The notes under the pieces were generated by a model. It was not told the DNA's origin and did not search any database. It was given only the letters and a program-made list of their open reading frames with translations. A program made the translations under genes and the position numbers. A DNA stretch of 23,559 nucleotides, from IMG/VR virus record IMGVR_UViG_3300035698_010216, positions 1 to 23,559 of that record; one strand, given 5' to 3'. Below, piece after piece: positions 2,418 through 16,590 of this stretch (position 1 is its first letter; every line of letters starts with the position of its first letter). Source of the stretch: a virus.

Positions 2418-3320
2418 CTACATCAATGGCACCATGTCGTCGGTAGGCCTCTTTGTAGTTATAATATCGCCGGCGTTATAGCTTCGACCGTCATAACACA
2501 TTGTCCTTTTTGTATAATATTTATGCTTAGCCAGTTTTACCTCTTTCCTAAAATTTGACTTCACACCCCTAAAGCCTATTGAGTAATCTACTTTGTGTTT
2601 ATCAAAAAAGCGGGCTTGGTCAGTCTTCCGGTGGCGGTAGTATTTATAATCATTTTCATTTTTAATTACTATATGGTCAGGCTTATGAATTACTATTGCA
2701 TCAGGTGTATAGGCCACGCTTCGTTTGGCTTTCATCATGCTAATAAACCAATCGGAGTGTTCATAGGCTACCTTGATTTTTTCGTCCCATGGAATACCTA
2801 TAATACTTTCACGCCTAGCTACAAAAAAATTAAAGGTAATATCGCATTTTTGGTAAACAAGCCTGCTAGGTATGTCGTATAAATTATGCTCGGGGTTCAT
2901 TTTCTTATATTCAAAGTGATCGGGGTATATATTTATAAAACCCTGGTAGTCTAAAATCTTGCCACGTTCACGGATACGCCCACCAATTAAATCAAAGTCT
3001 TTGTTTCCTCGTAGAAACTTTAACATTTCTCTAACCTTAGCTTCTTTATTGTAGTAGAAGTCGTCGTCGCCAACTAAGATATACTCAGTGTCAGCTAACT
3101 CTACTAATCTATTTCGTGCATAGCAAACGCCGCTATCAAACGGCATTAAAAAATAACGACCACCTCTAGCATGTATATATTCGTGTAGCTCTTTATTGTA
3201 CTGGCCGTTTTCTGCTACTAATATTTTTATGTCTTTGTATTCTTTATGTAATGTTCTTATGCACTCGAATGTGTACTCGGGGCGTAAGAAACTAATTAAT
3301 ACTGCGGTTAGATTTTTCAT
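2418..3320 (-). CDS. GT-A family glycosyltransferase (family 2-like)
   Basis: The 300-aa protein begins with a typical GT-A nucleotide-sugar domain: TAVLISFLRPEYTFECIRTL, ILVAENG at about 33-39, GVCYARNRLVE at about 64-74, and the metal-binding acidic motif VGDDDFYY with D85-D87. A later YEHSDWF segment is in the place of the catalytic-base region. The sugar and acceptor cannot be read from the sequence. The C-terminal 50 residues are basic and end in a short beta-like tail (YNAGDIITTKRP). It is the last gene of a five-gene overlapping operon and shares an ATGA junction with the TagD-like gene, so it probably builds the glycan that the LicD-type enzyme decorates, or extends it. Confidence 0.75.
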   Translation of the reverse strand: MKNLTAVLISFLRPEYTFECIRTLHKEYKDIKILVAENGQYNKELHEYIHARGGRYFLMPFDSGVCYARNRLVELADTEYILVGDDDFYYNKEAKVREMLKFLRGNKDFDLIGGRIRERGKILDYQGFINIYPDHFEYKKMNPEHNLYDIPSRLVYQKCDITFNFFVARRESIIGIPWDEKIKVAYEHSDWFISMMKAKRSVAYTPDAIVIHKPDHIVIKNENDYKYYRHRKTDQARFFDKHKVDYSIGFRGVKSNFRKEVKLAKHKYYTKRTMCYDGRSYNAGDIITTKRPTDDMVPLM

Positions 3321-3724
3321 TTATCTGTTCTTAATTTTGTTGAAGATATGTCCTTAGTTCTTGGTAGGTAAACTACTGGTACGCCTAGGCCCTCGCCACC
3401 AAAAGTCTTGGGTGTCCAGTCGTCGCCTACAAAAATAAAGTCAGGTTTAAACTTTTCTACTGCTTGTTTTTTTGTAAAAAATATTGCCTGGATATCTACC
3501 TCATCAACAAATTTCATTGACTTAACTATTTGCTGGCGTAGCTTTGTATTTATAGCTGGTCTATGCCCTTTGTTTTTTTCAATATACTTATCACTAGAAA
3601 CGCAAACAATAAGGTGGTTGCATTTAGCTTTAGCATTTTTAAGTAAATTGTAGTGGCCTTGGTGGAATATCTCGAAAGCCCCAAAGGTTAAACCAATTAT
3701 AGGCCTAGTGTTTTGGTTAGTCAT
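3317..3724 (-). CDS. TagD-like cytidylyltransferase (probable CDP-glycerol or CDP-polyol synthesis)
   Basis: At 135 aa this is the size of glycerol-3-phosphate cytidylyltransferase (TagD). The HxGH nucleotide-binding motif is present as HQGH (residues 21-24) after GLTFGAFEIF. VDEV, then FVGDDW and VVYLPRTKDISSTKLR at the C-terminus (ISSTKLR, 126-132) match TagD closely. The family transfers CMP from CTP to a phosphorylated alcohol, giving CDP-glycerol, CDP-ribitol-like or CDP-choline-like donors; FAD and heptose enzymes share the fold, but the GDDW and RT..IS.TK pattern favours the TagD branch. It overlaps the LicD-type gene by 8 bp, which is the enzyme that would spend such a CDP donor. Confidence 0.78.
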   Translation of the reverse strand: MTNQNTRPIIGLTFGAFEIFHQGHYNLLKNAKAKCNHLIVCVSSDKYIEKNKGHRPAINTKLRQQIVKSMKFVDEVDIQAIFFTKKQAVEKFKPDFIFVGDDWTPKTFGGEGLGVPVVYLPRTKDISSTKLRTDK

Positions 3725-4310
3725 TTTTAATTTCTTTAAATTTATTCATGCCTAATATAGCCTTGTCGCTTGTATAACAGGAAAAGTCCTTGCGGTGTAC
3801 TGGAGTTTTCCAGTCGCCATAGCGGTAGGTTAGATAATCCTCAACTTCGTATGGTATTAAAAATTCAAAACCTTTAAACTCAAATCGCTTTTGTTCTTTG
3901 TAAAATTTAGCTGGTACTTTTTTATAAACTAATTTTTTGCCCTGGCGTATAGTCCACCAACCATTATCTTCCCTAACTTCTTTGAACATTAGGTCTAGCT
4001 TTAAATTATGTTCATCGACTAAAGAAATTTGGGCTGTTCCTTGGTCGCCTTTTTTCCAATAGTGATAAAGTGCTAGGCCGTGCTTTCCCATGGCTTCTAT
4101 AATATTTAAAACCATGTAGTCATTCACTGGGTCAATAGTGGTTAGGTCTATGTCGTCATGATCATCGTCGCAAAAGTCGCCGTCCCGATAAGCACCCAGT
4201 AGCGTGCCACCGTCCAACATGAAGTCAATTTTAAAAAAGTCTAATACCTCTTTCAATTTTAAGAGGTTGTCAAAGGCTTTAGTTTTTTGCTGTTGTTTTG
4301 ATAATTCCAT
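3717..4310 (-). CDS. LicD/fukutin-type phosphotransferase
   Basis: This 197-aa protein has the hallmarks of the LicD/FKTN/FKRP family: MLDGGTLLGAYRDGDF (31-46) followed by the acidic cluster DDDHDDID (48-55), and near the C-terminus YLTYRYGDWKTPVHRKDF. Members transfer phosphocholine, or ribitol- or glycerol-phosphate, from a CDP donor to a sugar. With a TagD-like CDP-donor synthase immediately downstream and glycosyltransferases on both sides, the most economical reading is addition of glycerol-phosphate (or a similar polyol phosphate) to a glycan. No signal peptide or membrane segment is seen, so the reaction should occur in the cytoplasm. The exact alcohol and acceptor are unknown. Confidence 0.8.
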   Translation of the reverse strand: MELSKQQQKTKAFDNLLKLKEVLDFFKIDFMLDGGTLLGAYRDGDFCDDDHDDIDLTTIDPVNDYMVLNIIEAMGKHGLALYHYWKKGDQGTAQISLVDEHNLKLDLMFKEVREDNGWWTIRQGKKLVYKKVPAKFYKEQKRFEFKGFEFLIPYEVEDYLTYRYGDWKTPVHRKDFSCYTSDKAILGMNKFKEIKND

Positions 4311-4974
4311 ATTGTTTTAATAAGTTTTTCTTAGATTGCTCGAACTTTGGCCACTCTACCCTGTCAATTTTTTCATGCACACGTTTGCCATGTACGTTAT
4401 ACCAACGTGTACCATACCAGTGATGAAAGGCTAAAGTTTCGTCGCCTAGTTTATAATTATTTCCTATAACATCAGTGTAGATTGACTTTTGATATTTTAG
4501 ATATTCTACTTTGCCACCGGCACTAAGTACCTGGAAAAAGAAAAGTATGCCTACGTCGAACTTGGCACCGTCCACATTCTTTGGGGCAAAACTCATTTTG
4601 TTTTTTAAGAAATAATCTTTTTCAAAAAAAGCAACGCATGGCCTTATTGGTTTTAGTTGGCCACCCTCACCGGCTAATAATTTTACACCGGACTTTTCAT
4701 AGTATTTAACTATTTTTAAGTCCCAGTCTTTCAATAAAATATGGCTATCAATATCTAGGGCCATAATATATTTACCCTGGGCATCAGCTACTAACTTATC
4801 TAAACCACCAGCGTGGCCTATGTTAGCTGGGCTGCTATTGTCGTGTATAAGAATTTCTATACTTTCAAAATCGTTAGTGTTTGCTTCTAAGGAGTTTAGT
4901 AATAACTCTTTAAAATCGTCGCCGTAATAGTTAACTGCTACTACTGAAATTAAAGGTGTTTTTTTATTTTCCAT
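4279..4974 (-). CDS. GT-A family glycosyltransferase
   Basis: The 231-aa protein starts with a family 2-like GT-A fold: PLISVVAVNYYGDDF, then IEILIHDNSSP (D45, N46, S47), then GKYIMALDIDSHIL with the DxD-type motif D74-I-D76. A cysteine/phenylalanine-rich middle and HHWYGTRWYNV near residue 190 may form the acceptor site. It is shorter than many family 2 enzymes, as is usual in phages. It overlaps both neighbours (methyltransferase by 11 bp, LicD-type gene by 32 bp), so the set is probably translated together. Sugar specificity cannot be predicted. Confidence 0.72.
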   Translation of the reverse strand: MENKKTPLISVVAVNYYGDDFKELLLNSLEANTNDFESIEILIHDNSSPANIGHAGGLDKLVADAQGKYIMALDIDSHILLKDWDLKIVKYYEKSGVKLLAGEGGQLKPIRPCVAFFEKDYFLKNKMSFAPKNVDGAKFDVGILFFFQVLSAGGKVEYLKYQKSIYTDVIGNNYKLGDETLAFHHWYGTRWYNVHGKRVHEKIDRVEWPKFEQSKKNLLKQYGIIKTTAKN

Positions 4975-5494
4975 TTGGTTTTTTTAAGATTAAATTATAA
5001 GCGTAATATTTTGTTAAAATTTCTTTGCCAGGGTGTTCTTTACCATTGCTAGCAACAAATTCAAATAGTGGTACTTCCGGGGTGGAGTGTCTTTTAGCGA
5101 AGCCCTCACCAAACTTATTGCCTTTAATAAAATAATAAAAACTTTCTTTGTTCCAAAAACTAATATGTGTTGGGTCTTGTACGCTAGCCGGGCAAGGAAA
5201 ACATGGCACCTCTATTTTTATAAATCCACCTGGCTTTAGTAGATCATAGAAAAACCGCATTACTTTTACTTTATTGGCCGGCTGTATGTGTTCTAAAATA
5301 TGGCAGGCCCTTATTTCGTCAACGCTATTTGCTGTTATATCTATATCTTTTTCTACATTATAAAAATGTTTAAAAAGTGCAAAGTCAAAATTTTCTATGT
5401 CAAGACAAAAGTCAGCCCCTACTTTAGGGTCACTGTCTACTGTTAAATAATCTTCAAAGTGTCTGCGGCCACTACCCATGTCTAGCTTTATCAT
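4964..5494 (-). CDS. Class I SAM-dependent methyltransferase
   Basis: The 176-aa product has the glycine-rich SAM-binding loop LDMGSGRR at residues 4-11, an acidic strand end (VDSDP), and post-motif features ACHILEHI and FFYDLLKPGGFIKIEVP. DPTHISFWNKESFYYF in the second half is typical of small methyltransferases found in polysaccharide and O-antigen clusters. Being first in the glycosyltransferase/LicD/TagD operon, it most likely methylates a sugar or a related small acceptor rather than DNA; no DNA methyltransferase motif (DPPY or PC) is present. It shares an ATGA junction with the 55-aa gene upstream. Confidence 0.75.
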   Translation of the reverse strand: MIKLDMGSGRRHFEDYLTVDSDPKVGADFCLDIENFDFALFKHFYNVEKDIDITANSVDEIRACHILEHIQPANKVKVMRFFYDLLKPGGFIKIEVPCFPCPASVQDPTHISFWNKESFYYFIKGNKFGEGFAKRHSTPEVPLFEFVASNGKEHPGKEILTKYYAYNLILKKPNGK

Positions 5495-5658
5495 TTTGTT
5501 TTTATTACTAATTTAACTAACCATAACCATATACGCCAAGGTATATATTTAGGCTTAGGCTTCATGGCGTTGCCAATCATTTTGCCCATTTCCTCGGCTC
5601 GGTCTTTAACAGTACGGCGAAACATTTGCCTTATTTTTTTGCTTTGTTTTCCACTCAT
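5491..5658 (-). CDS. Small basic protein, 55 aa, unknown function
   Basis: A short open frame fits snugly between its neighbours: its ATG overlaps the stop of the replication-type gene as TAATG, and its TGA overlaps the start of the methyltransferase as ATGA. The product begins MSGKQSKKIRQMFRRTV and is strongly basic, with a C-terminal tryptophan-rich, hydrophobic stretch (YIPWRIWLWLVKLVI) that could lie on a membrane. The packed overlaps on both sides are the main evidence that it is translated. I do not recognise the family. Confidence 0.6.
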   Translation of the reverse strand: MSGKQSKKIRQMFRRTVKDRAEEMGKMIGNAMKPKPKYIPWRIWLWLVKLVIKTK

Positions 5659-6389
5659 TACATTGATAGTTTAACTTTTAAATTCTTCTTTAAATCTGCT
5701 AAGCGTTTATTTACCCTGGCCTGTTCGGCTGGGGTTCTAATATCTTTTTTATCTTGTATGGCTTGCAGTTCCTCTTGCTGTTTATTTTTTTGTGCCTGCC
5801 GCATGGCTATTACTGACTGCGGGTTTTTTTCAATATGTGTTTTTATAAAATTCCGTAGGGCAGCTTTGTAGTTGCTATAACTTTTTCCTTTAGCTTCGCA
5901 GTAGTCAATAACATCTTCGGCTCTATCCTTTACGAACTTAAAATCTACAAAAAACTTTTCGGCCAACTCTTTTATATCTGCTTCTGGTAATGCCCTTAGA
6001 TATGAAATTGAACCAGTGTGTTTTTTTGGTTCTTTGAATAGCGGGGCTTGGCCACTGTTCTGTTTTTCTAAAAATATTTCTATAATTTTTATAGCTTGCT
6101 CTATGTTTACTTTAAAATTTAATGTAGCTGGGCAACCGGCTAGCTTTTCTTCGAGTACTCCCAGCTTCCTGCCTATCTTCCGGGCAGTATCTTGTTCACG
6201 CCTGGACAAACCAGTTTCTTTATAAATATCTTTATGGGTTTTATAGATCCACCCGTCTTTTGTTTTATCAGTCCAGTAGTATAGCTGGCTCCAAAGTATG
6301 CCTAGGTTGACTGACTCAAACGCCTTGCCGAGTAATGGCTGGTAGGCTATTGGTCTTTTAAAAAATTCCATTATAGTTGTGTTGGTCAT
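5658..6389 (-). CDS. Replication initiator-like protein (winged helix plus phage replication C-terminal segment)
   Basis: The 243-aa protein has an N-terminal winged-helix-like region (about residues 8-90: KAFESVNLGILWSQLYYW, then KTHKDIYKETGLSRREQDTA) seen in phage replication proteins of the DnaD/O type, and a segment FVKDRAEDVIDYCEAKGKSY followed by NYKAALRNFIK that recurs near the C-terminus of phage replication initiators. The C-terminus is a charged coiled coil. I place the start at 6389, not at the ATG further upstream at 6407, because the stretch 6396-6401 is a perfect TATAAT and the ATG at 6389 follows it by six bases. No phage helicase or polymerase is in the window, so host enzymes are probably recruited. 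Confidence 0.6.
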   Translation of the reverse strand: MTNTTIMEFFKRPIAYQPLLGKAFESVNLGILWSQLYYWTDKTKDGWIYKTHKDIYKETGLSRREQDTARKIGRKLGVLEEKLAGCPATLNFKVNIEQAIKIIEIFLEKQNSGQAPLFKEPKKHTGSISYLRALPEADIKELAEKFFVDFKFVKDRAEDVIDYCEAKGKSYSNYKAALRNFIKTHIEKNPQSVIAMRQAQKNKQQEELQAIQDKKDIRTPAEQARVNKRLADLKKNLKVKLSM

Positions 6390-6395
6390 GGGTGT

Positions 6396-6424
6396 ATTAT
6401 ACATCATTTCTAATTATTTAGCAA
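6396..6424 (-). promoter_or_regulatory. Early promoter, copy 1 (24-bp conserved core, leaderless)
   Basis: The minus strand has TTGCTA (6424-6419), a 17-bp spacer and TATAAT (6401-6396), then six bases (ACACCC) and the ATG of the replication-type gene. The 24 bp at 6404-6427 are identical to those of the promoters at 11318-11346 and 15904-15932. An imperfect dyad CTAA-N4-TTAG (6410-6421) overlaps the -35 and looks like an operator. A TTTTACACA, matching the loose DnaA-box consensus, lies at 6442-6450 on the plus strand. Confidence 0.75.
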
Positions 6425-6427
6425 TAC
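6404..6427 (-). repeat. 24-bp promoter-core repeat, copy 1 of 3
   Basis: Exact 24-bp identity with 11326-11349 and 15912-15935, all in the same orientation. It covers the -35 hexamer and most of the -10 spacer but stops before the -10, so it is conserved beyond what RNA polymerase needs and probably binds a regulator. Confidence 0.85.
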
Positions 6428-6450
6428 TTTTTCTGCACAGTTTTTACACA

Positions 6451-6918
6451 TTACCAGTCTTGATAGTCCACTTCGTTAGGGTATGGAATTACAAGAGCTA
6501 AGCCACTATTAATGCTTAGACCCTGGGGCAAGGTAGGCAGTGCTGCCCACTTTATACACGTTTCCCAATAATCTCTATAAGCACCACTGGAAAGTTCCGT
6601 AGTGCTTAAAACTCTATGGTAGCGTACACCGGTAGAGGTTATTGCTTCTAAGCGTAGGAAAGAGTTTTTTAAAAATTCGTGGGCTTCTTGATCTAGTATG
6701 TCCATAGCTTCTGCCACCATGCGAACTACTACGGCGTGGTAAAACTTTTCTTCTTGCCTAGACCTCATTTTTGTGTGTGGCTTTATAGTTATATCTAACT
6801 CCTTGTCGTCCATAACTAATAAATGTTTTTGTACTGCTTCGGGGTCATTGAAAACAAGAGTGCCTGCTTTAGCTTTGCCGTGCCACTTTGGCCAAATTTT
6901 ACGTTCTTTTAATGCCAT
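6451..6918 (-). CDS. NinB-like phage recombination-associated protein
   Basis: The 155-aa protein shows the layout of phage proteins usually annotated NinB or YbcN-like: a short beta-rich start, MRSRQEEKFYHAVVVRMVAE at about residues 51-70, HEFLKNSFL at about 82-90, then STTELSSGAYRDYWETCIKW and a proline-rich end (IPYPNEVDYQDW). Members bind single-stranded DNA and act in phage recombination. It is in the early region with RecT/Bet-like, SSB and nuclease genes, which suits that role. The similarity is judged by eye and moderate. A TATAAA box lies six bases before its ATG but without a -35. Confidence 0.45.
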   Translation of the reverse strand: MALKERKIWPKWHGKAKAGTLVFNDPEAVQKHLLVMDDKELDITIKPHTKMRSRQEEKFYHAVVVRMVAEAMDILDQEAHEFLKNSFLRLEAITSTGVRYHRVLSTTELSSGAYRDYWETCIKWAALPTLPQGLSINSGLALVIPYPNEVDYQDW

Positions 6919-6925
6919 AATTATT

Positions 6926-7129
6926 TTATAGTTTTTTTATTACATCAAATATAATACTACTCATACTGTCTAGTCTTCGCTGGCAATACATTTTTAAAAT
7001 ACAGTCAGGGCAGACTTCGTACTTAAAAATAAACAGCCGGTCAAAAACAGAGTAATAATCTTCATGGCACTTATCACAATTCAAGTGCTTGTCTTTGTCT
7101 AAAATTTTCTGTGCTTTGGCGACTGTCAT
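6926..7129 (-). CDS. Mini zinc-ribbon protein, 67 aa
   Basis: Two CxxC knuckles are present, CDKC (18-21) and CPDC (40-43), separated by an 18-residue beta-like loop, the pattern of a treble-clef or zinc-ribbon domain. The C-terminal half is a hydrophobic helix with a basic end. The start overlaps the stop of the next upstream gene as ATGA, and the gene is one of at least five small zinc-binding proteins in this early region. Function is unknown; DNA, RNA or host-protein binding is possible. Confidence 0.6.
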   Translation of the reverse strand: MTVAKAQKILDKDKHLNCDKCHEDYYSVFDRLFIFKYEVCPDCILKMYCQRRLDSMSSIIFDVIKKL

Positions 7130-7296
7130 TTTTTAAATCTTTTAGCCCAGCTTATTAATTTTTCTATTACCTTGGGCGTACTCATAAAAATAGTAGCCTT
7201 ACAGTGTGGACACTCTACATAGTGCAATGGGTCGCTTACCGTATGCCAGGTGGCATGATAGACTTTGCCTTTTTTTATTGTTTTATCTTCTGCCAT
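7126..7296 (-). CDS. Mini zinc-finger protein, 56 aa
   Basis: The open frame begins MAEDKTIKKGKVYHATWHTV, has CPHC at residues 29-32, and ends in a basic helix (KLISWAKRFKK). Histidines ahead of the CPHC (HATWH) could complete a metal site. It lies one base from its upstream neighbour and overlaps the downstream zinc-ribbon gene by ATGA, giving good positional support. I do not know the family. Confidence 0.55.
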   Translation of the reverse strand: MAEDKTIKKGKVYHATWHTVSDPLHYVECPHCKATIFMSTPKVIEKLISWAKRFKK

Positions 7297-7297
7297 A

Positions 7298-7759
7298 TTA
7301 CTCGTTATTACAAATTACATTGTGCTTTTCTGATCTAAACTCTATTAGCTTATAGCCTATTTCCGGCGATATAAAATCCCCGGTGGTAGCTTCCACCCAG
7401 GGCATAAGGAAAGCATGCTCCCTACCCTCTACAACGGCTATGGTACTTTCTATTCCCATTTCCCGTAGCTTGGCTTGTAGGGCCTGGCTTTGGTCATAGC
7501 AATTATTTGTTTCCCGGTTATAGTCTATAATATCAATATCTTTTAAAGCGTTGCGGAAAGTATGAAATTGTGCCAGGTGGTTAGCTTCATTGGTCAAATA
7601 AATTTCATTGAAGCCGGCAGCTTCTAAGTCTGTACGTAGCTGTTTGTTCTCAGTTTTTACCCAGCCACTAGCGTAAGTTTCCAGGCGTAGAAGTAAGCCC
7701 AGCAATAATATAACAAATATCGCTGCCAGCCATAAAACTATGTTTGTACTTTTTTTCAT
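7298..7759 (-). CDS. Membrane-anchored transglutaminase/cysteine-protease-like protein
   Basis: The 153-aa product has one N-terminal membrane segment (about residues 8-27, LWLAAIFVILLLGLLLRL), so the rest probably faces outwards. The outer part resembles a small transglutaminase-like domain: NNCYDQSQALQAKLREMGI around the candidate nucleophile Cys, then VVEGREHAFLMPWVEA with the candidate His, and a GDFISPE turn. The pattern C...HAx...WVE is typical of the fold; the third acidic residue is not clear. Such proteins cross-link or cleave peptides and may modify the host envelope. The assignment is by pattern only. Confidence 0.4.
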   Translation of the reverse strand: MKKSTNIVLWLAAIFVILLLGLLLRLETYASGWVKTENKQLRTDLEAAGFNEIYLTNEANHLAQFHTFRNALKDIDIIDYNRETNNCYDQSQALQAKLREMGIESTIAVVEGREHAFLMPWVEATTGDFISPEIGYKLIEFRSEKHNVICNNE

Positions 7760-9085: not shown

Positions 9086-9244
9086 CTATCTTAGTTTAGC
9101 TTTTAGTGCATCTAGCTTTTTATTAGCTATTTTAAAATCGCACTGACCGTTAGAGCAAATAGTAAGGTTCTCGTCTTCGCCGTTAGGCATTAGCTTATGT
9201 TTGCACTTTGGGCATTGGTCTTTTTTTAAGTTTGTCCAATTCAT
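9086..9244 (-). CDS. Mini zinc-ribbon protein, 52 aa
   Basis: The 52-aa product has CPKC (11-14) and C30/C35 in ICSNGQCDF, a simple four-cysteine ribbon like those at the ends of RNA polymerase-binding or ribosomal proteins, then a basic helix (KIANKKLDALKAKLR). Its start overlaps the stop of the upstream gene as ATGA, which supports translation. Function unknown. Confidence 0.6.
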   Translation of the reverse strand: MNWTNLKKDQCPKCKHKLMPNGEDENLTICSNGQCDFKIANKKLDALKAKLR

Positions 9245-9549
9245 AATAGTGTTGATTGTTGGCTTATGCTTACGCCATTTTGTTTAAATATATTTTGCAT
9301 TGAAGTTGGTATTGTTTCAAACCAGTTAGTAATATCTTCGTAGCGTATGCGACGTTTTAAATACTTGCCTGCCCTTTGACTTTCTATCATTTCCGGGTAC
9401 TGGCTAGCTAATTCTGAAAGCCTAGCTGATGCCTCATAGCCAACGTATAACTCGCCCAGTGTTCCCCGCATGAAATCTTGGGGTAAAAACCATTTGCGAC
9501 CACGTTCTTTTGCCATGGTAGCTATTATTTTTTCGTGTTGTGTTTTCAT
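9241..9549 (-). CDS. Winged-helix-like protein, 102 aa, unknown
   Basis: The segment PQDFMRGTLGELYVGYEASA then RLSELASQYPEMIESQRAGK and RRIRY reads like a winged helix: helices followed by a beta wing in which the residues set the DNA-reading helix. It may be a small DNA-binding protein acting in early gene control or recombination. It has one of the very few good Shine-Dalgarno sequences in the window (AAGGAG nine bases before ATG), which also codes for the end of the upstream nuclease. It overlaps that gene by 4 bp. Confidence 0.4.
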   Translation of the reverse strand: MKTQHEKIIATMAKERGRKWFLPQDFMRGTLGELYVGYEASARLSELASQYPEMIESQRAGKYLKRRIRYEDITNWFETIPTSMQNIFKQNGVSISQQSTLL

Positions 9550-10148
9550 AAACCTATCTCCTTTTCAACTAATTTATTTATACCTTGCCAGGCATTTCTC
9601 ATTCTGATTTTCATTTTCAAAATGTCTGCCAGGCTTCGGTTTGTTTTAAAAACTCTTACTTCGCCAGTTAGGTGTGGCACGCCAAACTCGTCGGCTTCGC
9701 TAACTGCCCAGGCTAACTCTATATCTTCCGGTATTTTTCCGGTTAAGGCATAAAGCACCACTGCGTAAAATGTTATTTGACCATGCAAATTTACTTTGTC
9801 CGGGTTCCATTTAGTAATGCCTGTTTTGTATTCTTTAAACTTCCTGCCGTCTTTGGAAGCTGTATCTATTCGAGAGAACAGGGGAATTTCTAATTTATCA
9901 ACAGTAATAGTTGCTTTATAGTCCCAGTCCATTTGGTCTAGTTTTTCAAACTTGGCTATAACGACATCTTTCATAAGGTCGCCTGTGGCTTCGCCGGTTT
10001 CTAGTGCATCAGCAATTTCCTTGCCCAGGGCCATACCACGATTTATTGGTATAGCCTCGCCCTCTAGGTAGGTTTTTTTATAGCGTTCCGGCGACTTCTC
10101 AAATAAGTCAAGCTGTGTCCAGCTAAGATATGGTCTAGGTGTTAGCAT
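9546..10148 (-). CDS. PD-(D/E)XK nuclease, RecB/Cas4-like exonuclease
   Basis: The 200-aa protein has the motif order of RecB-family exonucleases: SWTQLDLFEKSPERYKKTYL at the N-terminus, a GMALGKEIADAL helix (the usual histidine is absent), then FSRID with D95, FKEYKTG with E106 and K108, and HGQITFYAVVL with Q124. These are the metal-binding D/E-x-K residues and the QxxxY helix. It directly follows and overlaps the RecT/Bet-like gene, so the pair forms a phage recombination system in which the nuclease makes single-stranded tails and the partner anneals them. Confidence 0.75.
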   Translation of the reverse strand: MLTPRPYLSWTQLDLFEKSPERYKKTYLEGEAIPINRGMALGKEIADALETGEATGDLMKDVVIAKFEKLDQMDWDYKATITVDKLEIPLFSRIDTASKDGRKFKEYKTGITKWNPDKVNLHGQITFYAVVLYALTGKIPEDIELAWAVSEADEFGVPHLTGEVRVFKTNRSLADILKMKIRMRNAWQGINKLVEKEIGL

Positions 10149-11010
10149 TTAACCTTTCGTCAATTTGTTTAAGTAATTTGTCTTTGTCGTCCTGGCTATA
10201 CTTTTTAGAACCCTCTATTTTTTCTTTTAGCTCGGGTAGTTTTTCAGCAGGTAATTTGCCTATGGCATTGGTAGCTTTATCAAGCATAGTTTCGGCTGGC
10301 TTATCGTCAACCTTTTCTAATTCCTCGGGTGCATATAAACCGCTTAGCAATTTAGGGAAGCCCTTGCGTAATGCCAGTGCTTCGGCACACTTACCAATTT
10401 GCCCCTTAGGCATTTTTTTCCACATAAAAGCCATTTTATCTGCTGGGCAATATTCAACCCAGTGGGCTGTCGCTGTGAAAGGGTAGCGTTCCCCGTTTTC
10501 CATTAGTTTGTAAACAGTGACGGTAGCTTTTATTGGCAGCTTAGTGTTCTCGTCCATTTCAATTATTGGATCATCACTACCAGCATATTGACCGCCACCC
10601 TCAGCAATAGCCCGGAAGCCGTCAATGCCTACCTGTATTTGCCCAACTTCCTTGCCCTGTTTGCTGTCCCAACGCTTTACAAAATGAACCTGGCGTAAAA
10701 ACGGATTGAGTCTAGCACCAACGCAAACATTTAAAAAGAGCTTCAATTCATCATCGGTAGCACCTTTGGCTAGCGTTGACTTTATAAGCTCTATTTGTGG
10801 CTTGGTCATTTTCTTGAAAGCGTCCTCAGCATCATTGCTAGTTAGGTGTTTCTCGACTATTTGTATAGCCTGCTTTTTCTCTTTAACTTCTTTTGCTGGC
10901 TTCTCTTCTTTGACCTTGCCTGGTTTCTCTTTTTTTTTAGCGACTGGTTTTTCCCCGTCTTTTTTCTTTGGTGCGGAACCAATCATTGTGTTTTTTGTGT
11001 TGTCTTGCAT
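10135..11010 (-). CDS. RecT/Bet-type single-strand annealing protein
   Basis: The 291-aa product has a lysine/proline-rich flexible N-terminus (about 1-48), then a Bet/RecT core: LNPFLRQVHFVKRWD, GKEVGQIQVGIDGFRAIAEG, and KKMPKGQIGKCAEALALRKG then FPKLLSGLYAPEEL. This order is diagnostic for the Bet/RecT family, which coats single strands and anneals complementary ends. It is paired with the PD-(D/E)XK exonuclease downstream (overlap 14 bp) and an SSB upstream. The extra basic N-terminus, not usual in short family members, may bind DNA or a partner. Confidence 0.85.
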   Translation of the reverse strand: MQDNTKNTMIGSAPKKKDGEKPVAKKKEKPGKVKEEKPAKEVKEKKQAIQIVEKHLTSNDAEDAFKKMTKPQIELIKSTLAKGATDDELKLFLNVCVGARLNPFLRQVHFVKRWDSKQGKEVGQIQVGIDGFRAIAEGGGQYAGSDDPIIEMDENTKLPIKATVTVYKLMENGERYPFTATAHWVEYCPADKMAFMWKKMPKGQIGKCAEALALRKGFPKLLSGLYAPEELEKVDDKPAETMLDKATNAIGKLPAEKLPELKEKIEGSKKYSQDDKDKLLKQIDERLNANT

Positions 11011-15935: not shown

Positions 15936-16110
15936 TCTAATTGTGGATAACTATTTATAAAAAAAACATATATTAGTAGTCTATGTCGTAATCTCTGATA
16001 ATGATAGACTGCACATTACCGCCAATCCAGTTGGGCGGATATGTGCAACTGGTTGCACTATTCAGCCAATCTAAAGCTATTTATACACTACTTATAAACA
16101 GAATTGCCAC
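15936..16110. other. Intergenic region with inverted repeats and a DnaA box; candidate origin/control region
   Basis: Within the 340 bp between the early and lysis genes no gene is credible. The part 15936-16110 has a perfect DnaA box (TGTGGATAA, 15942-15950), an AT-rich tract (about 15951-15976), and three inverted repeats: AGTCTAT/ATAGACT (15978-15984 and 16004-16010), CCGCCAA/TTGGGCGG (16020-16038), and GTGCAAC-TG-GTTGCAC (16043-16058). A DnaA box next to an AT-rich tract and dyads is the usual make-up of a replication origin, and the last dyad has the form of a repressor operator. Both roles are inferred. Confidence 0.35.
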
Positions 16111-16138
16111 AATAAAAAGAAGCGGTTTTACCCGCTTC
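16111..16138 (-). terminator. Rho-independent terminator after the lysis genes
   Basis: On the minus strand GAAGCGG (16138-16132) pairs with CCGCTTC (16125-16119) around a six-base loop, followed by TTTTTATT (16118-16111). It ends late transcription coming from the tail and lysis genes before the early promoter region. Confidence 0.8.
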
Positions 16139-16187
16139 CTTTCAACTCCTCACGAAGTAAGTAGTCAACTCCAACACACAGCCGACT
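16111..16187 (-). ncRNA. Candidate short RNA of about 77 bases
   Basis: An extended -10 (TGCTATAAT, minus strand 16202-16194) just after the holin stop predicts transcription from about 16187 to the terminator at 16111. The predicted RNA has two GGAGTTGA repeats and a small stem (CTTAC/GTGAG) before the terminator hairpin. It could instead be only the 3' end of the late mRNA. Confidence 0.3.
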
Positions 16188-16193
16188 TATTTT

Positions 16194-16202
16194 ATTATAG
16201 CA
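16194..16202 (-). promoter_or_regulatory. Extended -10 element after the holin gene
   Basis: TGCTATAAT on the minus strand matches the extended -10 consensus TGnTATAAT; the -35 position (TACCAT) is poor. The same bases form one arm of an inverted repeat TAGCAG/CTGCTA spanning the holin stop, so part of the match may have another cause. Confidence 0.35.
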
Positions 16203-16203
16203 G

Positions 16204-16476
16204 TTATTTGCCTGCTATGGTAGTCTTGCCGAATTCCCAAAGACCAACTCCGCCAAGTCCTAAAATTACGCCTACTATGCCACCAAGCACAGATAGCTGT
16301 ATGACTATTAGGCCAACCGCCAACCCGATAAGTACAGAGGTTAAAGGTAGAAATCTTGCAGGAACTCTAACAGCCTGCTTTAGCACTTCGACTAAACCAA
16401 TTACTAGGGGCAATAGCCATGCAGATTTTATCAATACTTCTTGCAGTGTAATGATGTCGATAATTTCTTTTTCCAT
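16204..16476 (-). CDS. Holin
   Basis: The 90-aa protein has three likely membrane helices: about residues 12-32 (VLIKSAWLLPLVIGLVEVL), 42-62 (FLPLTSVLIGLAVGLIVIQL) and 66-84 (GIVGVILGLGGVGLWEF). The start is charged (MEKEIID) and the end is basic and short. Size and topology fit a class I-type holin, which opens the cytoplasmic membrane at a set time so that the lytic enzyme can reach the wall. It is the last gene before the late terminator and follows the cysteine peptidase gene and a 33-aa membrane peptide. Confidence 0.65.
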   Translation of the reverse strand: MEKEIIDIITLQEVLIKSAWLLPLVIGLVEVLKQAVRVPARFLPLTSVLIGLAVGLIVIQLSVLGGIVGVILGLGGVGLWEFGKTTIAGK

Positions 16477-16488
16477 TTCTTTTTATGG

Positions 16489-16590
16489 TTAATAATTTTT
16501 TATGTTATCTCTAAGTATTAGAGCTATATAATATATTACGTAGCCGGGCATCAATAAAATAGTAATTATTTTTTGCTGCCGACTATACAT
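16489..16590 (-). CDS. 33-aa membrane peptide of the lysis module
   Basis: The start overlaps the stop of the peptidase gene as TAATG. The product MYSRQQKIITILLMPGYVIY then YIALILRDNIKNY has a basic start, one membrane helix and a charged end. It sits between the probable lysin and holin, so an accessory holin or antiholin role is possible, but this is positional inference only. Confidence 0.5.
   Translation of the reverse strand: MYSRQQKIITILLMPGYVIYYIALILRDNIKNY

Follow-up and report, generated by a model that had tools for sequence, protein, structure and literature searches.

A module of five overlapping genes at positions 2418-5494 of the uncultured viral record IMGVR_UViG_3300035698_010216 (23,559 nucleotides, analysed at full length and referred to below as the window) encodes a methyltransferase (MT), two GT-A glycosyltransferases (GT1 and GT2), a LicD/FKRP-type phosphotransferase and a TagD-like cytidylyltransferase. 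We tentatively propose, with a confidence just short of even, that this mobile and late-expressed module builds an anionic glycan of the glycerol-phosphate type, most likely on a virion protein. The chemistry of this proposal is well supported. Folds, intact active-site residues, conserved co-occurrence, a low ratio of non-synonymous (dN) to synonymous (dS) substitution and the genomic slot with its neighbourhood were computed, and from these we infer the identity of the substrate, the order of the steps, late expression and the acceptor. The central claim of a first-pass annotation of this DNA, namely that donor synthesis by TagD, phosphotransfer by LicD and the glycosyltransferases serve one function, survives both the active-site and the co-occurrence tests.

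Organisation of the module

All five module open reading frames (ORFs) lie on the minus strand, begin with ATG and overlap their neighbours by 11, 32, 8 and 4 bases in the order of transcription. The operon opens with MT (4964-5494), a class I S-adenosylmethionine-dependent methyltransferase of 176 residues, followed by GT1 (4279-4974, 231 residues), LicD (3717-4310, 197 residues), TagD (3317-3724, 135 residues) and GT2 (2418-3320, 300 residues). Genes, order and families are as the first-pass annotation had placed them, on the evidence of ORFs and Pfam matches, with LicD and GT1 settled by structure. No membrane segments were found in any of the five proteins.

The LicD/FKRP-type phosphotransferase

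Against Pfam PF04991, the window LicD protein scored 19.7 bits (E-value 9.9e-4), below the gathering cut-off of 22.6, and its homologue in a second contig, G002, passes the same cut-off once its two stretches are joined. The AlphaFold2 model of the window protein, with a mean predicted local distance difference test score (pLDDT) of 89.7, returned FKRP for all 13 of its best Protein Data Bank (PDB) matches (E-values down to 8.5e-7, TM-scores up to 0.60 on the query), and a profile built from ten phage LicD sequences matched FKRP at 4.4e-6. Among the NCBIfam models, the nearest is a glycolipid cholinephosphotransferase, the match to Mf1 being weak and below cut-off.

The protein carries the motifs LDGG (hGG), D50, D53-I-D55 and K-L-D106-L. 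In the comparison with FKRP that had been suggested from the outset, profile alignment set D50, D53 and D55 against D360, D362 and D364 of the FKRP stretch WDYDVDL, and the hGG motif was present. Mutation of Asp360, Asp362, Asp364 and Asp416 of FKRP found these residues to be essential or critical for activity (PMC6965139). Judged by its position in the modelled fold, D106 on the K-L-D-L strand is the likely counterpart of Asp416. The hGG motif is conserved in FKRP, whereas Mf1-related LicD proteins are said to lack it (PMC11982090). All four aspartates are kept in every aligned full-length LicD of the 20 contigs described below that carry both LicD and GT2 (the L029 copy is truncated, and those of L067 and L100 lie outside the alignment), and the LicD proteins without one or more of them come from contigs lacking GT2 (L022 and L025). 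Membership of the window protein in the LicD/FKRP family, by modelled fold and active-site aspartate set, is thus well supported, and transfer from a cytidine diphosphate (CDP)-linked donor is predicted.

The TagD-like cytidylyltransferase

The TagD-like protein matched the Pfam family CTP_transf_like at 2.1e-15 and retains intact HQGH (HxGH), GDDW and RTKDISSTK (ISSTK) motifs. Incomplete active sites in the LicD- and TagD-like proteins, which the first-pass annotation had named as grounds for abandoning its claim, are contradicted by these motifs and by the complete aspartate set of LicD. The best PDB match was PCYT2 (9e-19), followed by the Bacillus subtilis glycerol-3-phosphate cytidylyltransferase (GCT) 1coz (8.5e-17) and by 2b7l (1.3e-14). 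The best NCBIfam model was that of glycerol-3-phosphate cytidylyltransferase, TIGR01518, at 84.1 bits, short of the equivalog cut-off of 165.4 that the L040 module TagD, at 156.2 bits, approached more closely. Because the window score falls so far below the GCT cut-off, the enzyme is designated only TagD-like, and CDP-glycerol is, as far as sequence allows, its most likely product and not a proven one. As a separate observation, the TagD of L015 (3912-4742) bears an N-terminal extension that may be an HNH-type homing endonuclease, which would suggest fusion of a homing gene to the module.

The methyltransferase, the glycosyltransferases and a shared small domain

MT exceeded the cut-off of Methyltransf_23 (PF13489) at 1.9e-6, and its homologues in other phages with the module are 51-66% identical. 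GT2 exceeded that of Glycos_transf_2 at 3.5e-12, with profile matches to B4GALNT1 (1.5e-12) and SunS (0.0033). GT1 fell below the Glycos_transf_2 cut-off (0.0062), and its model, of moderate confidence (pLDDT 71.6), found its best folds among GT-A enzymes, namely RmlT (1.2e-7) and also TarP, with TM-scores of only about 0.5. Both RmlT and TarP glycosylate ribitol-phosphate wall teichoic acid. DxD-type motifs are found in both proteins (LDID at residues 73-76 of GT1; DDD, within GDDDF, in GT2), and both are placed among GT-A enzymes by fold or profile.

GT2 ends in a small C-terminal domain of 34 residues (residues 265-298; 2427-2528, minus strand) with the motif YxxR..YDGxxYNxGDII, which occurs in the GT2 proteins of the window, L015, L016, L029, L041 and L092/L100, and more weakly in L067. 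When a hidden Markov model (HMM) of GT2 tails only was searched among 9,903 ORFs, it recognised the C-terminus of a Stealth-type enzyme in L083/L084 (1.2e-8) and, with weaker support, the Stealth-type enzyme of L074 (2.5e-3); similar stretches, statistically unsupported, lie at the ends of the L086 and L079 Stealth-type enzymes and at the start of the L073 glycosyltransferase. Two readings are offered: the tail may be a tag that brings different enzymes to one partner, or it may mark a boundary of recombination that coincides with the last gene's end. The N-terminal position in L073, if real, would favour the tag, and a small domain common to GT2 and to a Stealth-type enzyme of the same genomic slot (see below) suggests a shared partner or acceptor. 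Assignment of the tail to Pfam DUF7210 fell below cut-off, and homology with the N-terminal domains of the LicD proteins of L031, L043 and L045 was unsupported (hhalign 56%).

A conserved protein of 130-170 residues without a Pfam or PHROG match is encoded directly or soon after GT2, as in L017 (6574-7026). Its homologues are found in nine loci (L018, L032-L035, L039, L040, L042 and L046) from two phage lineages, and it is a candidate partner or acceptor.

Recurrence, variation and selection

A degenerate DNA pattern for GGTLLGA[YF]R located the second contig, G002 (L012/L013, IMGVR_UViG_3300013101_000041), and alignments then widened the family. Near-identical contigs were removed before counting, and tallies were made by hand from gene tables, many of the records being fragments. 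LicD is accompanied by GT2 in 20 non-redundant viral contigs (the window's virus, L015, L016, L017, G002, L029, L031-L036, L040-L043, L045, L046, L067 and L100), 15 of which also have TagD, and all five genes are present in eight (the window, L015, L016, G002, L040, L042, L045 and L046). Co-occurrence in other phages, which had been put forward as a check, is thereby borne out. The test is not circular, since probes of GT2 only and of MT only still returned contigs bearing LicD: LicD was found in 10/10 other non-redundant contigs reached by GT2 alone (L028 being a truncated copy of L029), beside 9/9 independent MT homologues of at least 45% identity, and in 4/4 other contigs reached by GT1 alone.

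G002 has homologues of all five genes (45, 49, 41, 25 and 47% identity) in another gene order; the order of the window recurs in L015, L016 and L045. Further genes join the module in places, including a sulfotransferase (PF03567, 5.5e-10) between TagD and GT2 in L015 and an epimerase in L031, L032 and L035. For GT2, dN was 0.09 and dS 2.24, and for LicD 0.28 and 2.17, with dS near saturation; on these sequence comparisons, selection on the module genes is purifying. Since the five homologues co-occur in distantly related phages and selection is purifying, the gene set is not a product of chance. The LicD of L031, a phage of the SU10-like group, is nearest to that of L016 (58%), and the MT of L015 to that of G002 (68%); such single-gene best matches cross phage lineages, and therefore the module and its parts move horizontally.

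An interchangeable slot beside packaging and capsid genes

The phages bearing the module span at least three morphogenesis types. In two lineages with HK97-type portals (different large terminases, related portals), the module lies upstream of ParB or methyltransferase genes, the small and large terminase subunit genes (TerS and TerL) and the portal gene. In the SU10-like phages its neighbours are the SU10-type major capsid gene (PF17236, 5.5e-47) on one side and the following structural genes on the other; in L036 the module is followed by the SU10 adaptor gene (7.6e-8), and the last glycosyltransferase gene overlaps the start of that adaptor gene.

A survey of 80 relatives of the window's large terminase yielded 13 distinct contigs with enough upstream sequence. 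In 12 of these 13, the slot before ParB-TerS-TerL holds a glycan set: the LicD module in 6/13, a Stealth_CR2-type phosphotransferase in 5/13 (over the Pfam cut-off in L084 and L094, just under it in L072) and a different set in L073, with none in L085. Three of the five Stealth-type slots also have a polysaccharide pyruvyltransferase, and most have other glycosyltransferases or methyltransferases as well. The L073 slot (3961-7470) comprises a 573-residue glycosyltransferase, a methyltransferase, a hexapeptide acyltransferase-like gene and a UDP-glucose/GDP-mannose dehydrogenase. Judging by family, these sets would all presumably add anionic groups, as phosphodiesters, pyruvate, sulfate or uronate. 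Psychrobacter phage Y8A has the order ParB-Mom-TerS-TerL with no insert at the slot position. The interchangeable slot, the variable order and content of the module and the adjoining Mom and ParB genes are all absent from the first-pass annotation.

Proposed pathway and alternative explanations

The enzymes suggest a pathway in which TagD would activate a polyol as its CDP derivative, CDP-glycerol made from glycerol-3-phosphate of the host being the likeliest product. GT1 and GT2, the latter a GT-A enzyme resembling B4GALNT, would build or extend a short glycan, LicD (metal-dependent, with the FKRP fold) would transfer polyol phosphate onto that glycan as a phosphodiester, and MT would cap it. 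If, as seems most likely, the glycan sits on a virion protein, particles would bear anionic groups resembling teichoic acid. A virion acceptor is favoured by the place of the module among packaging and capsid genes in three lineages, by the solubility of the enzymes, by the lack of an integrase in 19 records and by the shared tail domain.

Several observations weigh against this proposal. No acceptor protein was identified, and the GT2 tail motif was not found in other proteins of the examined loci, virion proteins included. A gene order beside late genes is no proof of late expression, and many of the module records are fragmentary. CDP-glycerol is not established, the window TagD lying at 84 bits, far under the 165.4-bit GCT cut-off; TagD was seen in 15/20 module contigs, with none in the available stretch of the other five. 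The HxGH motif is lost in the TagD of L017 (3635-4024) and L033 (4407-4805), which have TSAH or TEAH with LicD intact, so that their activity is possibly changed or lost. Synthesis of their own CDP donor is, from these sequences, not universal among the module phages.

Of the three roles that the first-pass annotation had listed, decoration of virion proteins is the one favoured here, masking of the host surface is kept as its main rival and decoration of DNA is disfavoured. In the rival account, which we regard as rather unlikely, the module alters a glycan of the host envelope during infection (lipopolysaccharide core, O-antigen, capsule or teichoic acid), and the cell and its remains would thereby cease to be bound by sister phages or by newly released virions. 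Bacteria typically make their surface polysaccharides with enzymes of the LicD, TagD, Stealth, pyruvyltransferase and sulfotransferase types, the two enzymes closest to GT1 in fold (RmlT and TarP) have ribitol-phosphate teichoic acid as their substrate, the closest NCBIfam model for LicD is that of an enzyme acting on a glycolipid, and the swapping of sets in one slot would also fit a receptor arms race. However, no lipid-carrier enzyme, flippase or membrane-bound glycosyltransferase was found among the module genes or the examined neighbour families, and the SU10-like phages carry the module within the run of genes from capsid to adaptor. Lysogenic conversion is unlikely, because neither tyrosine (PF00589) nor large serine (PF07508) integrases gave a match in 19 records, many of them fragments, with positive controls; Gtr-type lysogenic serotype conversion, which presupposes a temperate phage with an integrase, was rejected on the same 19 records.

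That the module decorates phage DNA, adding sugar and polyol phosphate to a base handle alongside Mom and ParB-linked DNA methyltransferases, appears improbable. Phage DNA can bear phosphodiester-linked sugars, as in SP-15; in the window, the genes immediately downstream of the module are ParB and Mom, and ParB or ParB-methyltransferase genes lie near the module in many contigs. Against these points, no thymidylate-synthase-type base hydroxymethylase was found in 19 records (control positive), no base-modifying handle enzyme is common to the module phages, Mom occurs in only 1/19 module records, one other phage (L092/L100) having a Mom-like gene, and the ParB-Mom pair occurs without the module in Psychrobacter phage Y8A. 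The Mom neighbour probably has a separate function outside the module. A Tet_JBP test of the same idea had silent controls. Cytosine carboxymethylation by CmoX is recognised by an SPPC motif and an arginine at the HhaI Asn304 position (PMC12783734); the C5 methyltransferase of the window has ordinary PCQ and GN motifs (GSPCQ, ALGNGW) without that signature. Finally, it is very improbable indeed that the genes are mere passengers acquired from a bacterial capsule locus and serve no common purpose in the phage: the block has a slightly reduced G+C content (about 0.36, compared with 0.40-0.42 downstream) and gene content differs between phages, but the same genes stay together in at least three morphogenesis types, with low dN/dS and their catalytic residues kept.

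Beyond the virion proposal itself, a wider generalisation may be considered, possible though on the doubtful side: that a teichoic-acid-like polyol-phosphate glycan, made by phage-encoded soluble enzymes, coats a capsid, neck or tail protein in many uncultured tailed phages, and that these phages swap whole anionic-glycan modules (LicD/TagD, Stealth/pyruvyltransferase, sulfotransferase, dehydrogenase) at one slot through enzymes sharing a small targeting domain. Interchangeable anionic-glycan modules beside packaging and capsid genes yield a testable prediction on the chemistry of phage particles, with a bearing on adsorption, on passage through charged surface layers and on the annotation of glycan genes in metagenomic phages.

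Neighbouring genes and source contig

The operon is preceded by a replication-initiation gene and a NinB-like gene. Downstream, all on the minus strand, are the ParB-like gene that borders the slot (1771-2379; phrog_620, 2.6e-25), a Mom-family adenine modification enzyme (1133-1798; PF25680, 3.8e-51), the annotated TerS (352-858) and the annotated TerL (3-407), which is cut by the window end and is whole in L002 at 9089-10567. The Mom gene, from a non-Mu phage, scores 174.1 bits against a cut-off of 27.1 and is 55% identical to that of Psychrobacter phage Y8A, which has the same ParB-Mom-TerS-TerL order. Assignment of a host was abandoned as conflicting: Mom and ParB have their closest relatives in Psychrobacter phage Y8A (55%), yet those of the portal are in Bacillus and Geobacillus phages. 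On inspection, L015 (6209-6853) and L031 (3851-4465) each encode a short protein that resembles C5 methyltransferases, contains an SSPPC motif and has an unusual C-terminus.

The window is a fragment of the 36,904-bp record IMGVR_UViG_3300031227_000178, with 100% identity and 14 extra bases in the window at the junction. Because its two ends adjoin within the window, that record looks, from sequence, circularly permuted and complete. G002 is also contig QNDS01000005.1 of a metagenome-assembled genome of Ca. Fermentibacteria, a viral contig in a bacterial bin and not evidence of the host. Scans of the window for tRNA and Rfam families found none, and a promoter scan gave fewer sites than in shuffled sequences. 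The sole sizeable plus-strand ORF not opposite a larger gene (16001-16492) has no PHROG or Pfam match.

Comparison with known systems

The LicD, TagD, GT-A and Stealth families are known; what is new is the chemistry and the modular slot within phage-encoded glycan modification. A literature search of open-licence papers found no described phage pathway combining donor synthesis, transfer and glycan assembly. The earlier remark that no phage system with exactly this set was known holds for PHROGs and for 50,697 phage records at the sensitivity of tblastn, where the five-gene set was absent and homologues, of the TagD-like, LicD and MT proteins only, stood in isolation. Single-protein searches of those records with LicD, GT1 and GT2 returned no close relatives, a LicD search of plasmids and GTDB contigs returned no relative, and in PHROGs GT1 and GT2 had no significant match and LicD only a marginal one, to an unnamed PHROG. 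Related sets of such enzymes recur in at least 19 other uncultured phages, beside genes for packaging or the capsid, and probably represent a widespread, undescribed decoration of the particle or the host surface.

Among known phage systems, the cyanophage glycan clusters also set phage sugar genes, a TagD-like protein included, beside virion genes; that of S-CAM3, for example, comprises a TagD-like coding stretch, a carbamoyltransferase, heptose genes and an epimerase, followed by a tail fibre, but the enzyme set differs, and nothing there matched LicD or GT2. Vibrio phages 150E35-1 and 1.031.O have isolated LicD family genes (a match of 25% coverage), with no cytidylyltransferase or glycosyltransferase annotated within 8 kb of the LicD gene in 150E35-1. 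The bacterial LicD/Mf1 phosphotransferases of surface glycans resemble the window LicD through weak Pfam LicD and NCBIfam Mf1 matches and the CDP-linked donor; the window protein differs in lying below all cut-offs, in possessing hGG and in belonging to a phage operon with two GT-A enzymes and MT. Glycerol-3-phosphate cytidylyltransferase of the TagD type shares HxGH, ISSTK and GDDW with the window enzyme, as well as the 1coz match (8.5e-17), whereas the equivalog score of 84 bits against 165.4 leaves the specificity as a prediction.

Phosphodiester-linked polyols are known from bacterial walls, capsules and one mammalian glycoprotein, and the closest likeness is to the enzymes acting on the dystroglycan core M3. 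There, FKTN and FKRP move glycerol phosphate from CDP-glycerol, made by PCYT2, to N-acetylgalactosamine (GalNAc) or ribitol phosphate on a peptide-linked glycan (PMC8587909), and ISPD makes the CDP-ribitol that they use (PMC4873967). The phage LicD is shorter than FKRP (197 against more than 400 residues) and has one extra residue separating D50 from the DID motif, and the fold of ISPD is unlike that of TagD. In common are the LicD-type nucleotidyltransferase fold, the hGG motif and the same aspartate set (PMC4873967, PMC6965139, PMC8587909), and the phage set contains the same three roles: a cytidylyltransferase activating a polyol, a transferase of the FKRP fold and an enzyme resembling a GalNAc transferase. 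The product of FKTN and FKRP is a polyol phosphate on a protein-linked glycan, and that of the phage module, by analogy, would be alike.

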